Assembly (NCBI RefSeq): GCF_018873765.1
Contig: NC_057925.1
Span: 19,789,568-19,853,567, forward strand
DNA length: 64,000 nt
Source: Telopea speciosissima
Lineage: Eukaryota; Streptophyta; Magnoliopsida; Proteales; Proteaceae
Direction: 5' to 3'
The notes under the pieces are model-generated. The model saw only the letters and a list, made by a program, of their open reading frames with translations. It did not search any database and was not told the origin of the DNA. Of the stretch, positions 13,459 through 19,577 are shown piece after piece (positions within the stretch are counted from its first letter, which is position 1; every line of letters begins with the position of its first letter). Both the position numbers and the translations under genes were made by a program.

Positions 13459-13768
13459 TTAGGCAGCGTTTGGTAAATGTCTAAACAGCGTTCAGAACAG
13501 GTTTTTCGTTCTTTAAGAACAAAAAAACGTGAAATTGCGTTTGGCTTGACGGTTCGTTTTTTTGTTCTTTAAGAACGAACCAAAGGAATCTTTGAGGTAA
13601 AGAACGTTCTTTACAGACCGTCTCCAAGACGGTCTGCAAAGAACAAAGAACAAATGCATCGCGATTGACGAGTAAAAACCCGTGAGCAAGCCTCGAAGAC
13701 AAAAAAGCAAACTCAAAAGGCAGATCTAGGGAAGGAAGAGGAGGAGGAGGCGAATTTGCAGGTAGATC

Positions 13769-13896
13769 TCCTCTCTCTCTCTCTCGCTCTCAATCCCTCT
13801 CTCTCTCGCTTCCTCTCTCTGCTCTCTCTACCTCTCACTCTCCCTGTCCTGTTTTCTCTCTCTCTCTCACTCTCTGTTTCTCTCTCTCTCGGTCGT
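13769..13896. repeat. CT-rich microsatellite tract
   Basis: Imperfect (CT)n/(TCTC)n run just inside the left end of TIR element 1. A similar CT tract lies at the same relative place in element 2 (17206-17330), so the tract belongs to the family. A (GT)n(GA)n tract follows at 14278-14322. Confidence 0.85.
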
Positions 13897-15792
13897 TTGT
13901 TGGGATGAAGACCTAACTACGAGTTTTTCTCCTTTGTCTCAGGATTTGGAGCAACAACCCTAACAATTGATGGTTTTTGCTATAGTGGTCCTCCCTAGCA
14001 CGACCCTATCTGCAACTGAAGTTCACAACAACGATGGTGACGTGAGACCTCTCTCCCTCTCTCTGTAATTAGATCTTTGATCTTTGTTTTTCTTTCCGAT
14101 TTTAGTAGATTAACTATGATGAACAGTAGCTGTTGTAATGGCTGTTTGTTTTCTAGAATTTGTTCTGAAATAATAAAACTCGATTTAGTTGGGTTTATTT
14201 TTCTTTCTTTTCTCTATTTACCTGAATATTTTGGTGTACGTTCTATGGGTAATATATTGCAAAAATTGCTCTGTATGTGTTTGTGTGTGTGTGTGTGTCT
14301 CAGAGAGAGAGAGAGAGAGATAGATTTGTTGGTTAATTGAACTTGGAGAAACAAGTTGCAGGTGGAGAGAAAGGGCCTTGAGGGGATACGGTCAATGACA
14401 GATCTTATCTCTGAGCCTTTCTTCTCAAATCCTTCTATTTTCTTCTTCATTTATTTGTTCTCCAACTCTGCTGCTTCTTATCTCCTACATAGGTCTCACA
14501 ACAAGGTATATGGGATATACCTTCAGATTCTGAAATCAAGCAGTATCATTTCATTTATGAGACTGACTGGAACAAAATACATAACAGTCTTTCTTCAAAT
14601 TGGATGGGAAATAAACAGGAAGTAATAGACAAAGAGAGATGAAAATTGAAAACAGAGACGATGATTTAGTAAGATGGATAAGAAACAGAAAAGAAAGAGA
14701 AGGAACAAAAAGATTTTAGTATTTCTTCCTTTATTCAAACTAGCGCACAAATCACAGCTAGGAGTTTGATTTTGGACAAGCTTTCTGAAAGCGCCAGTTA
14801 GGAATTTGTGAAGAGTAAGAGATGATTTCAGCTCTCATTTTGAAATTTCCAGGTAGCATAGATCCACAGAAGTATGAAAATAGAAGGCATTGGATGAAAT
14901 GATTTGAGAGATTTAGATAATGCTTAGAAAGGAGACAGGCTGGCAGGGTATAGAAGCTCCCTTTTCTGGTTTTGCACACGACTCTAGTGCAGAATCAACC
15001 AAAATATTTGTGGAAATCCAGTCAGTCATGGAAGCTTTTGATAATAATTCTATGGTCAATCTCAGATTTTCAGCTTTTGATAATAATGCTATGGTTCACA
15101 AAAGTTCAACTACAATTTTGAGATCTTAAGCAATAAGAAGTTTTGGCTGAGTTGGTCCTTCATTCCATTTGTTTGCGCATAACACTTGGAAAATTACACA
15201 TTATTTTTCTTTTGAAAAGTTATGCTCCTTTAAGTTCCTTATATTCTAATTTGTAAGTAGTTGTTTTCTTCCTTAGTTTTTATTTATACCTGGTTCAATG
15301 GCAAAAGTTAATGAGGAAGGCTAATTCTGCACTATTTTATAACAATGAAAGGAGATCAACAGAAATGAGAGCCTGCATTCCATTTATTTTCCAATAATGC
15401 GCTAGTAAAGGACAATGTTGTTTTTTTACCTTGAATAAGTTATGCTCCTCTAAGTTCCTTTGGTCTAATTTGCTTAGTTGCTTCTTCCATTTTTTTTATT
15501 TGGAATTGGTTCATTGTCAAGAATTCATGAGGGAGGTTAAAAGATGGTAGGGATTCATTTTTGTATTTCATCTGTCAGAATTTGCCACTGGCTTTACTTC
15601 ATTGCCCATGCTTTGAGTTGGATCTTGGCATGCATGGGCAATGGCTCTTTTATCTTACTGTCATCCTTACACTAAAACAGAACCTTTCTTTTTTTGCTTT
15701 CATAACAAACAGCCGGGAGAATTGAGATGGTCTCCTTTCACTTGTTAAGGTTTGCTTATTGAGGGGAAAACAAAGCAAAACAATGTCTGTCT

Positions 15793-16005
15793 ATGAGCTT
15801 TATACTCTTTCTTTCACTTTTTGCCTTTGCTCCATTATGCTTTTCCCACAAGAACAATGGTGGTTACCTCTATCCACAGTTCTATGACCATTCATGCCCA
15901 AAAGCCCAAGAGATTGTGAAGTCAGTTGTTGCAAAGGCTGTTGCAAAAGAGACTCGGATGGCTGCCTCATTGCTCAGACTCCATTTTCATGACTGTTTTG
16001 TTAAG
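15793..16005 (+). pseudogene. Captured class III peroxidase, exon 1
   Basis: The 71-codon exon encodes a signal peptide ([18 protein letters not shown]), the mature N terminus [20 protein letters not shown] and [17 protein letters not shown], which holds the distal arginine and histidine and two conserved cysteines of secretory plant peroxidases. It ends at a good donor (aag/gttctt). The usual protein has about 330 residues over four exons; here only exon 1 and a scrap of exon 2 exist, so no enzyme can be made. The piece lies wholly inside TIR element 1, so I read it as transposon-captured host sequence. A processed gene copy is excluded by the retained intron. Confidence 0.88.
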
Positions 16006-16142
16006 GTTCTTTCTTTCTTCATAATCCATACTAAATGTGTCACTAGAAGACTAATAACATAACTTCATTGCTATCACCTCACCACCTTTTACTGTTTCTT
16101 TTATACATATAGTTCTTTTCTTCTCCTACTAAGCCTAATAGA

Positions 16143-16254
16143 TGATTTCTGAATTATAGGGCTGTGATGGATACATTCTGTTAGACAGCAGTGCCACCAT
16201 CATCAGTGATTTCTGAATTATAGGGTTGTGATGGATCCATTCTGTTTACAGGCT
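16143..16254 (+). pseudogene. Captured peroxidase exon 2 start, tandemly duplicated
   Basis: After an acceptor (gaattatag, ending at 16159) the sequence reads GCDGYILLDSSATIISD, the expected continuation of HFHDCFVK in class III peroxidases. About 64 bp later the intron end and GCDGSIL are repeated (from about 16207), and coding similarity then stops. The duplication of an intron/exon junction shows rearrangement after or during capture. Confidence 0.75.
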
Positions 16255-16379
16255 GAACAGATTGTATGTTTTTTGCATGTATAGACTGGTGGTCCTAGCT
16301 AGGAAGTACCACTGGAAAGAACACAGTAAATTAATTAACAATACTTTATCCTGTGTCCCCTAATCAATGAGTACTTGAT

Positions 16380-17618: not shown

Positions 17619-17737
17619 ATGTGTTTCGATTGCAATGCGAAGAATCCGACATGGGCGTTCATCACGTATGGGATTTTTCTTTGCATCGATTGCTCCACTG
17701 TTCACCGAAGCCTAGGTATTCACATCAGCTTCGTGAG
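17619..17737 (+). pseudogene. Captured ARF GTPase-activating protein exon (zinc finger)
   Basis: Between an acceptor (tgatgcag) and a donor (gag/gtaattc) the sequence reads [12 protein letters not shown], then [11 protein letters not shown], then [13 protein letters not shown]. The cysteines follow CX2CX16CX2C and the arginine after VH is the catalytic one of ARF-GAP proteins; wording fits the plant AGD8/9/10 group. ARF-GAPs speed GTP hydrolysis by ARF small GTPases in vesicle traffic. Only this 119-bp exon is recognised, so it is a captured fragment inside TIR element 2. The reading frame shown is offset from the longer open frame on the same strand. Confidence 0.88.
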
Positions 17738-18564
17738 GTAATTCGATTGAAAATGGGGGATTTTTAATTTGAATTTGGTTGGTTCTCAAATTATGCTTGA
17801 TGATTGGGGTTCTTTTGGCTGATTTGATCTAGAACAAACTTGTATGGTTTGCTCAACATTGATTTATTTTGTTTTCAGTATTAAATATTGTCGATTGGTT
17901 GAGCTCAAGTGTTAATCAACTGGTTTCATTGTATGGATTGATATTATGTGATTGCTGGACTATGTTCTGTAAGATGCCAGCTTAGATTGGAAGGCTTGGC
18001 ATGGTAGTCAGGTCTCTAGCTAAAGGAATAATTCTTACAGAGCATTTGGTTGTACTTCAATCTCTTCCCCCCACCTCCCCCTTTCTAAATGAATAAGCAC
18101 TTCAATTAAGAAGACAAAGAAACCCCACTAAGTGGGACGACAAACCAGATATTGTTCTATACAATAAAAGGTAAAGCAACATAGAAATATGGTGTCCTTG
18201 ATGCATATACTCCCTTAAAGATACATCTATCTCTAACACATTCACTTATGAATTTGTAGAACTAGTTCTCTATGGGATGATCATGATGAGATGTTCCTAC
18301 AGAAGCATGAGGATCATTATGAATGTGTTTCCTTTTTTTTTTTTTTTTCAATTGCACAACACGAATACCTGGTTAGTAATTGGGAATTAAAGTTTGGAGC
18401 TTCAGTGTTAAAGTAGAGAGAATCGAAGAGATTTTGCATTATGATGCTGTGCCTAATTCCTCTTCTTCTGCCCCCTCCCTCCTTTTATATCCTCTTGGCT
18501 TTCATTGTTTGTGTTTTTTTTTTTATCAGCATCCTGTGATTTTGGTTTAGCGTTCCAGCTAGTG

Positions 18565-18725
18565 TTATTGAGTTGGGTTTGGATTAGAAAGGGGAAGCAA
18601 ACCCTTCTCCTTAGTTATTTTTATGGCTCCCTTGTACATCTCTTCTAAGCTGTACTTGAACTCAAATCCAAGATCTCGTAAGCTTTTAGAGGAGAAAACG
18701 ACGACTTCTAGGCTTTCACTTGGGA
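18565..18725 (-). pseudogene. Captured C-terminal exon of a DFR-like reductase
   Basis: The minus strand reads [18 protein letters not shown], then [19 protein letters not shown], then LLPLSN to a stop at 18565. This matches the C terminus of dihydroflavonol 4-reductase-like short-chain reductases (FSSKKLxDLGFxFKYSLEDMF...KGLLP). The NADP-binding Rossmann part and catalytic Tyr-Lys are absent. It is in opposite orientation to the ARF-GAP exon in the same TIR element, so two unrelated genes contributed. Confidence 0.72.
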
Positions 18726-19106
18726 AGTTAAACCGCATGACATATACCATTTTAGTATTAATGATCAAAGGACCTCCTAAGAACCGCATCAAAATATATT
18801 CGGTTCCATTTTTAATTGTTAATTTTGTTGTTAGGAGATCGAAGTTTCTCAGTAACAAAGTAAAATTCAGGAAGGCTTTAGCAGAGTGCAAATCTGGGAT
18901 TTGCTTAGAATTGAAGACAAAGATTGTATAGATTGGAGATTACAGGCACACATATAGGGTAAAAATGCTTTCCTTTCCACGCTTCGTTGAGTGATTTCTT
19001 TTGTGCTTCTTGGGCCATTAAAATTCATTCATTGCAAATTGATTCAAAAAAGAATGGAGAATATAATTTGGTTTAATCTGTTGTGTTAATTCATTGACAA
19101 CTTGAT

Positions 19107-19187
19107 GGGTCTTTAGCTCAAATTGGTAGAGCACTTGGAACATGAGTATGTTCCAAGAGGATCGTAGTTCGAGTCCACCAAGGCCCT
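19107..19187 (+). other. tRNA-shaped module in TIR element 2
   Basis: Second copy of the module: acceptor GGGTCTT/AAGGCCC and D arm GCTC/GAGC are intact. The middle hairpin has a 10-bp stem CTTGGAACAT/ATGTTCCAAG closing a GAGT tetraloop. The T-arm side (AGTTCGAGTCC) is slightly worn. The paired changes relative to the first copy keep the middle stem, which suggests the hairpin is real rather than noise. Confidence 0.65.
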
Positions 19188-19577
19188 CTTTATTCAACTG
19201 TTCATAGCATAGCCAGTTGTGCCACTAATCCACACAAGAACCCAATTTTAATGGCATCTTTGAAATTTGACATATTTTCATACTTACTTTAGTTATGTTA
19301 ATGAGATATTTTAATTTTATACTAAGGTTGGTAAGAGCAAAGGATTTTACAAGTCTTTTTTTGGTATAATTGACAAAGAAATGGCATTATTGTAATTAAC
19401 ATCAAATAGGAAAGAATAGGTTTTACCAAACACCATTTTTCGTTCTGAACGACGTTCTTGTGACCGTTACCAAACGGTCATTTTCAGTCTCAGAACGCCG
19501 TTCCAGACTAGAAACGCAAAAGAACGTTTCTAGTCAAGAACGGGTGTTCTTTGTTCAGACCGTTACCAAACGCGCCC

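Follow-up and report, generated by a model that had tools for sequence, protein, structure and literature searches.

How do two transposon-like elements, each carrying pieces of different host genes, come to lie end to end with a single TTA between them? This question is raised by a 64,000-nucleotide stretch of Telopea speciosissima DNA (the window; C10:19789568-19853567, label G000, in an 822.9-Mb assembly). We are confident that the two elements, E1 and E2, are non-autonomous Pack-type members of one PIF/Harbinger family; they would have moved in trans, and they probably gained their cargo by template switching and came to abut through a rebuilt target site. Their outlines are as follows; genomic loci compared with them are labelled L with a number.

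13462 to 16845, plus strand: E1, a non-autonomous PIF/Harbinger-type element of 3384 bp, with TTA on both sides (13459-13461 and 16846-16848)
13462 to 13691, plus strand: E1 left arm, containing a 39-nt palindrome (13606-13644)
16364 to 16845, plus strand: E1 right arm; 1465 first-look candidates in a genome search, 40 of them scored, at 87-100%
16849 to 19577, plus strand: E2, a second family member of 2729 bp, sharing its left TTA (16846-16848) with E1 and flanked on the right by TAG
16849 to 17075, plus strand: E2 left arm; 523 first-look candidates in a genome search, 40 of them scored
19091 to 19577, plus strand: E2 right arm, 84% identical to the E1 right arm over 487 bp

Repeat analysis pairs a 27-nt terminal inverted repeat (TIR) across E1 (13461-13487 with 16820-16846, 89%) and a 28-nt one across E2 (16847-16874 with 19552-19579, 86%), and places the elements head to tail, abutting at the single TTA. 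They share left arms of about 230 bp (repeats D6, D10, D15) and right arms of about 480 bp (D3-D5, D7, D14). Ends, arms and separation by one common TTA are therefore as an earlier note on this DNA had claimed. The near-perfect palindrome recurs in the E2 left arm (16981-17019) and in the relative L061 described below; it is possibly a transposase binding site. Only one stop-to-stop open reading frame (ORF) of at least 120 amino acids lies wholly within E1 and E2 (18565-18939), and it resembles dihydroflavonol 4-reductase (DFR). The window is not among the genome matches listed for PF13359 (transposase), and E1 and E2 have no transposase, as is characteristic of Pack-type elements.

To define the family, the genome was searched with the right arm of E1 and the left arm of E2, and the 30 best loci per search were fetched. 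A TWA trinucleotide (TTA or TAA) adjoins the TIR at 27/30 left ends and 24/30 right ends. The base before TWA is C in 22 of the 27 left ends and the base after it is G in 15 of the 24 right ends, so that in the fetched ends a C-TWA-G core is clear and outer positions are weak; 25 of the 27 left ends start with GAG. The preference of maize PIF is CWCTTAGWG, a 9-mer that the literature searched did not confirm. Genome-wide, TWA followed by GNNNNCGTTTGGTAA occurs exactly 948 times, against 22 for the reversed control, a count that takes in several related families. Together with the 40 scored copies of each arm, this confirms that the ends and arms are not chance resemblances; and paired elements were found elsewhere, so these are not ends that occur without an element between them. 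Short TIRs common to the copies and a 3-bp TWA duplication are both features of PIF/Harbinger.

Two relatives are candidate sources of the transposase; DDE_Tnp_4 matches lie 6-7 kb inside two family left ends. One relative, L061 (C3:42769300-42779200), is a 7.8-kb element with the TTA-flanked ends of the E1/E2 family (TTA-GGGTGCG...CGCAGCC-TTA). It has a PIF-type DDE transposase (DDE_Tnp_4 exon, E 4e-17) and a second ORF with a Myb/SANT domain (Myb_DNA-bind_3, PF12776, E 3.6e-20), the other two features expected of the superfamily, as well as an antisense GH17 fragment (E 6.2e-13). The other, L068, matches L061 at 97.1% over 4716 bp and 98.7% over 2567 bp; its right end is TAA, and its left terminus was not found by the motif used. 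The transposase exon is present in seven near-full-length copies with at least 92% amino-acid identity over 177-179 positions and no stops. The GH17 stretch occurs at full length in eight places (98-100%), four of them 5-6 kb from a transposase exon. L061 is thus a transposase-bearing relative, of the kind the earlier note had proposed to look for, and such relatives, having the same termini, would move E1 and E2 in trans. The TWA flanks and this relative bear out the suggestion that the family is PIF/Harbinger-like; Mutator, hAT and Helitron are ruled out by the 3-bp TWA flanks and the DDE_Tnp_4/Myb pair.

The DNA between the arms consists of host gene pieces.

14546 to 15072, plus strand: E1 piece X, 94.9% over 527 bp to C3:14.25 Mb, adjoining an ORF with an ESCO-type zinc finger
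15095 to 15705, plus strand: E1 piece Y, 95.9% over 611 bp to C7:62.22 Mb
15697 to 16209, plus strand: E1 peroxidase piece A, holding exon 1 (frameshifted), intron 1 and the exon 2 start, 95.7% to a gene at C7:6.68 Mb
16207 to 16246, plus strand: E1 peroxidase piece B, a 40-bp re-copy of the exon 2 start with a 3-bp overlap with A
16245 to 16321, plus strand: E1 peroxidase piece C, by eye the end of intron 2 and start of exon 3, with a 2-bp overlap with B
17505 to 18315, plus strand: E2 ARF-GAP gene piece, 71% over 907 bp to L065, its zinc-finger exon within 17613-17738
18456 to 18826, minus strand: E2 DFR-like last-exon piece, in opposite orientation, 87% over 376 bp to L066

In E1, the class III peroxidase assignment rests on PF00141 (E 3.5e-7 at 15853-16005). 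The peroxidase exon 1 and exon 2 start that had been reported are indeed present; the report missed that exon 1 is frameshifted, that the exon 2 start appears twice, and that X and Y are there at all. Because Y (which overlaps the peroxidase piece by 9 bp), X and the peroxidase DNA match three unlinked loci, E1 is a mosaic. In E2, the ArfGap exon (PF01412, E 3.3e-19 at 17613-17738) and the DFR-like exon stand in opposite orientations, as claimed. The DFR-like piece itself has no Pfam match; the L066 exon resembles solved chains of a ketoreductase (1.1e-14) and dihydroflavonol 4-reductase (4.2e-14). Introns and splice sites are retained in the cargo.

Aligning the cargo to parent genes located likely donors elsewhere in the genome: for the peroxidase, an intact-looking four-exon gene (L062, C7:6.68 Mb) and a 5' fragment (L063, C2:29.72 Mb); for ARF-GAP, L065 (C11:37.50 Mb); and for DFR, L066 (C1:18.61 Mb). 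Each cargo has also multiplied after capture. Full-length E1 peroxidase DNA is found in six element copies, E1 among them. The ARF-GAP and DFR pieces occur together at 15 places including E2, ARF-GAP alone at two further places and DFR sequence alone at six. The cargo sits in dispersed copies; its exons do not belong to complete genes next to the elements, and decay of such genes is ruled out. The ARF-GAP exon has a pooled pN/pS (nonsynonymous to synonymous ratio) of 0.40 over 40 codons in 8 of the 15 copies, and copy L044 has a stop. Across 60 loci we distinguished 14 cargo clusters. Pfam scans, which covered cargo other than X and Y, gave no match at E 0.05 for selected longer non-repetitive ORFs, one locus each, from nine further clusters; only four coding captures (peroxidase, ARF-GAP, DFR and GH17) can therefore be named. 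With host gene DNA between TIRs, likely donors elsewhere and dispersed cargo copies, the description as a Pack-type family holds. That it was "seen in the act" was an overstatement: cargo copies differ from those in the window by 2-14%, and mobility is read from the sequence.

A component that the earlier note had overlooked lies inside the common right arm.

16372 to 16465, plus strand: E1 tRNA-like cassette, with a tRNA fold at 16380-16460 and an ARAGORN report at 16379-16461 with a 4-base anticodon
19107 to 19188, plus strand: E2 tRNA-like cassette, reported by ARAGORN, RNA fold z -4.1

The E1 cassette scores 47.5 bits against RF00005 (gathering threshold 29) and has a DNA fold z of -3.4 at 16372-16464; Rfam reports nothing for E2 at the gathering threshold. 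Eight of nine further sources score 39.3-54 bits, the exception being L061, and RNA folds across five copies have z from -2.4 to -4.4. The tRNA fold is 81 nt long with an abnormal anticodon arm, an extended hairpin that makes a decoding role unlikely: 14 nt, rather than a normal 7-nt loop, lie between the anticodon stems (L021), and both window copies have a 4-base anticodon. The first 26 nt of the cassette occur exactly 601 times in the genome (control 0).

Is the cassette simply a passenger? A tRNA-derived short interspersed nuclear element (SINE), common in plants, or a tRNA pseudogene could have entered an ancestor and been carried along; we regard this as possible. The fold is not that of a normal decoding tRNA, one ancestral insertion would suffice for its presence in one family (family A), and the transposase-bearing L061 and L068 have no tRNA-like sequence by motif (L061 none by ARAGORN or Rfam either). 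Its surroundings argue otherwise. We sampled 20 cassettes by hand at roughly even steps from the first 100 of the 601 places (C1 and C2). Family A right arms account for six, of which five have a terminal TWA and one (L081) CAA. Another six have a common family B right arm (L080 by eye); its end is included in two of these and reads ...CAAACGGTACC-TWA. A further three have family C ends, ...CCAAACGGGCTC or GGACTC followed by TWA. Among the others, L079 and L085 share a context, L088 has a truncated family A arm, and L083 and L075 fall outside these groups. The cassette thus recurs in the right arms of at least three families with PIF-like right ends, B and C being known here from right ends alone. 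For families A, B and C, BLAST similarity to E1 stops 75-162 nt past the cassette start, and their right ends have different TIRs, with TWA. In L075 the tRNA-like sequence stops after about 27 nt and gives way to unrelated sequence repeated at that locus, probably another insertion.

The position of the cassette points the same way. Of 48 copies listed on C1, 16 have an exact TIR end at most 1.2 kb downstream and none has one upstream (chance 0.02). In 14 of the 16 it lies at 455-472 bp; where an exact end is listed, the cassette thus keeps a nearly constant distance from it. The other 32 copies have no exact TIR end downstream among the matches listed, as a passenger might. On the 5' side we clustered the upstream sequences of 35 copies, 20 chosen mostly for nearby family ends and 15 from earlier work (L030 and L057, in which the motif was not found, went unused). 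They formed 10 clusters; by its printed letters L076 belongs with E2, and L100 resembles family C. About nine unrelated upstream sequences join the cassette within a few bases of one place, which speaks against a passive passenger. Measured from the 26-mer, the median edges of BLAST similarity for the 45 cluster pairs fall at -5 to -8 in 31, at -5 to -16 in 41 and at -20 to -35 in four. A single fixed left edge in all copies is ruled out, families B and C sharing about 29 bp upstream. The members of one cluster (E1, L004, L014, L018 and L023) diverge from each other farther upstream. Within family A, breaks relative to E1 lie about 230-300 bp upstream of the cassette for the L004, L014 and L018 groups and about 23 bp upstream for L082. 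At one place on C2, two tRNA-like 26-mers lie 119 bp apart on one strand (9701890 and 9702009), perhaps a duplicated cassette.

These patterns raise the tentative idea, which we consider doubtful, that the cassette is a built-in cargo dock, forming the inner border of the right arm in several PIF/Harbinger families, with host DNA repeatedly joined at its 5' side. The copying strand might leave its template at the strong hairpin (or at an RNA polymerase III complex on the cassette), or transposition might need the cassette, which would stop erosion of the right arm there.

How, then, was the cargo taken up? Uptake probably occurred by template switching during copying of a broken or excised element. 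Later swaps would have replaced the left side of the cargo and spared the right arm, including its tRNA-like cassette. An improbable alternative is that two nearby copies were mobilised as one together with the DNA between them (the model of Catoni 2019, as described in PMC8903248). It has in its favour that abutting pairs exist, mostly tail-to-head by terminal type, and that 12 of 13 local PIF pairs in maize share an orientation, according to the parts of PMC8903248 consulted. Neighbour fusion, however, predicts contiguous DNA from one place, whereas E1 holds pieces of three unlinked loci and its peroxidase part is rearranged: in parent coordinates, A runs up to 1070, B covers 1004-1043 and C starts at 1250. 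This back-jump and skip, with overlaps of 2-3 bp, fits template switching better.

Template switching with later swaps on the left is also consistent with the way the cargo lineages nest. Among 13 sequences compared (A and B were merged in L016), the A-B-C arrangement occurs in four cargo lineages, with A starting at parent position 555, 947, 974 or 994; the simplest reading would be one capture followed by the joining of different DNA on the left. X and Y are complete in E1, L002 and L011; the L024 locus has Y only and the L008 locus part of Y. E1, L002, L011 and L008, and not L024, share a 2-nt frameshift deletion near the exon 1 ATG, which rules out an intact captured exon in E1. Within Y lies an imperfect duplication (15157-15324 and 15372-15540, spacing about 215 bp), and the donor locus L110 has off-register matches too.

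The abutment of E1 and E2 is not unique. Eleven sites show the junction pattern, which was counted on both strands at each of them (control 0). By terminal letters eight are tail-to-head, one is probably so and two are ambiguous; terminal type is an imperfect guide (the left end of L042 has a right-type terminus), and the arms were checked at the window and L057. Random landing on C-TWA-G predicts about 0.3 abutments for 474 elements. The TIRs start with G and TWA is mostly preceded by C, so that a terminus together with its duplication re-creates the target core. Recurrent abutment is most simply explained if a new copy can land in this restored C-TWA-G, the preferred target, within the duplication of an older one. 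At L020 a right arm runs straight into left-arm-like sequence with no usual terminus, perhaps a decayed abutting pair. It is almost certainly wrong to see E1 and E2 as immobile parts of a single rearranged locus or as host genes in decay: exons with introns and splice sites are present, yet this view leaves unexplained the paired ends, the TWA flanks and the copies with the same cargo scattered over many unrelated places.

Several observations weigh against the interpretation of E1 and E2 as mobile elements that capture by template switching. Movement, excision and transcripts are unseen. Three of the 30 left ends and six of the 30 right ends are without TWA plus TIR. E2 is flanked on the right by TAG and so lacks an intact target duplication, as would follow if CTTAG had lost one T. 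L068 is without about 590 bp that L061 has between the two genes. Overall identity is only 71% for the candidate ARF-GAP donor and 67-68% for the GH17 candidates, so these donors may be lost. E1 resembles the C2 fragment L063 (96.3% over 437 bp) slightly more than the intact-looking C7 gene, which leaves the peroxidase donor copy unsettled. The back-jump and skip could be a tandem duplication and a deletion after one contiguous capture. Finally, with 1500 elements about three chance abutments would be expected.

Elsewhere in the window, four minus-strand DUF247 (PF03140) ORFs, perhaps a tandem family, lie at 265-1173, 11220-12185, 35140-36429 and 59861-61192, with retroelement ORFs among them (RVT_2 at 8939-11044, RVT_3 at 28348-29373 and RT_RNaseH at 51956-52579).

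How plant TIR transposons pick up genes is still debated between neighbour fusion and template switching. The nested cargo lineages here come with donors already mapped, overlaps at their junctions, relatives that carry a transposase and a fixed junction module, so that each model predicts something different that can be checked. The family is also relevant to the multiplication of tRNA-like sequences in plant genomes. If the cassette does direct cargo joining, it would be the first sequence-defined gene-capture hot spot known to us, as far as a non-exhaustive search goes. Listings of open-licence papers showed no tRNA-like module described at a site of capture, and titles and abstract openings of open-licence papers held nothing relevant on a tRNA within a miniature inverted-repeat transposable element or Harbinger element. 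Two features were not found in print: the presence, in several families, of a tRNA-like cassette at the edge of the cargo, and a series of nested captures whose donors are mapped.

Among known systems, Pack-MULEs likewise hold gene fragments with introns between TIRs; unlike E1 and E2, they belong to a different superfamily, with longer TIRs and duplications of about 9 bp. Our further comparisons draw on parts of PMC8903248, PMC2528002, PMC13317346, PMC8277862 and PMC2213677. The gap-filling and FoSTeST models for animal Pack-TIRs (PMC8277862) similarly involve template switching and short overlaps (median 2 bp there); those elements are from animals, and the text compared contains neither "Harbinger" nor "tRNA" and describes no fixed junction module. 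The earlier note was right that the superfamily is PIF-type and implied too much in calling that unusual, since PIF gene capture is already described in the portions of PMC2528002 and PMC8903248 compared, for grapevine Pifvine-3 and maize and rice Pack-PIF respectively. Pifvine-3 (Benjak 2008, PMC2528002) is, like L061, a transposase-bearing PIF element with long transduplicated exons and introns; here, the transposase elements that carry GH17 are accompanied by many non-autonomous copies whose right arm contains the tRNA-like sequence. The closest parallel is Pack-PIF of maize and rice (Gisby and Catoni 2022, PMC8903248), as described in the parts compared: PIF/Harbinger ends, non-autonomous multi-copy elements with host coding DNA, and nearby same-orientation pairs. 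The word "tRNA" does not occur in that paper, whereas the module is present in E1 and E2; and maize Zm cluster 18 averages 402-535 bp with gene pieces of 58-163 bp, whereas E1 and E2 are multi-donor mosaics of 3.4 and 2.7 kb. E1 and E2 are thus well-supported Pack-PIF members, of a kind already known.

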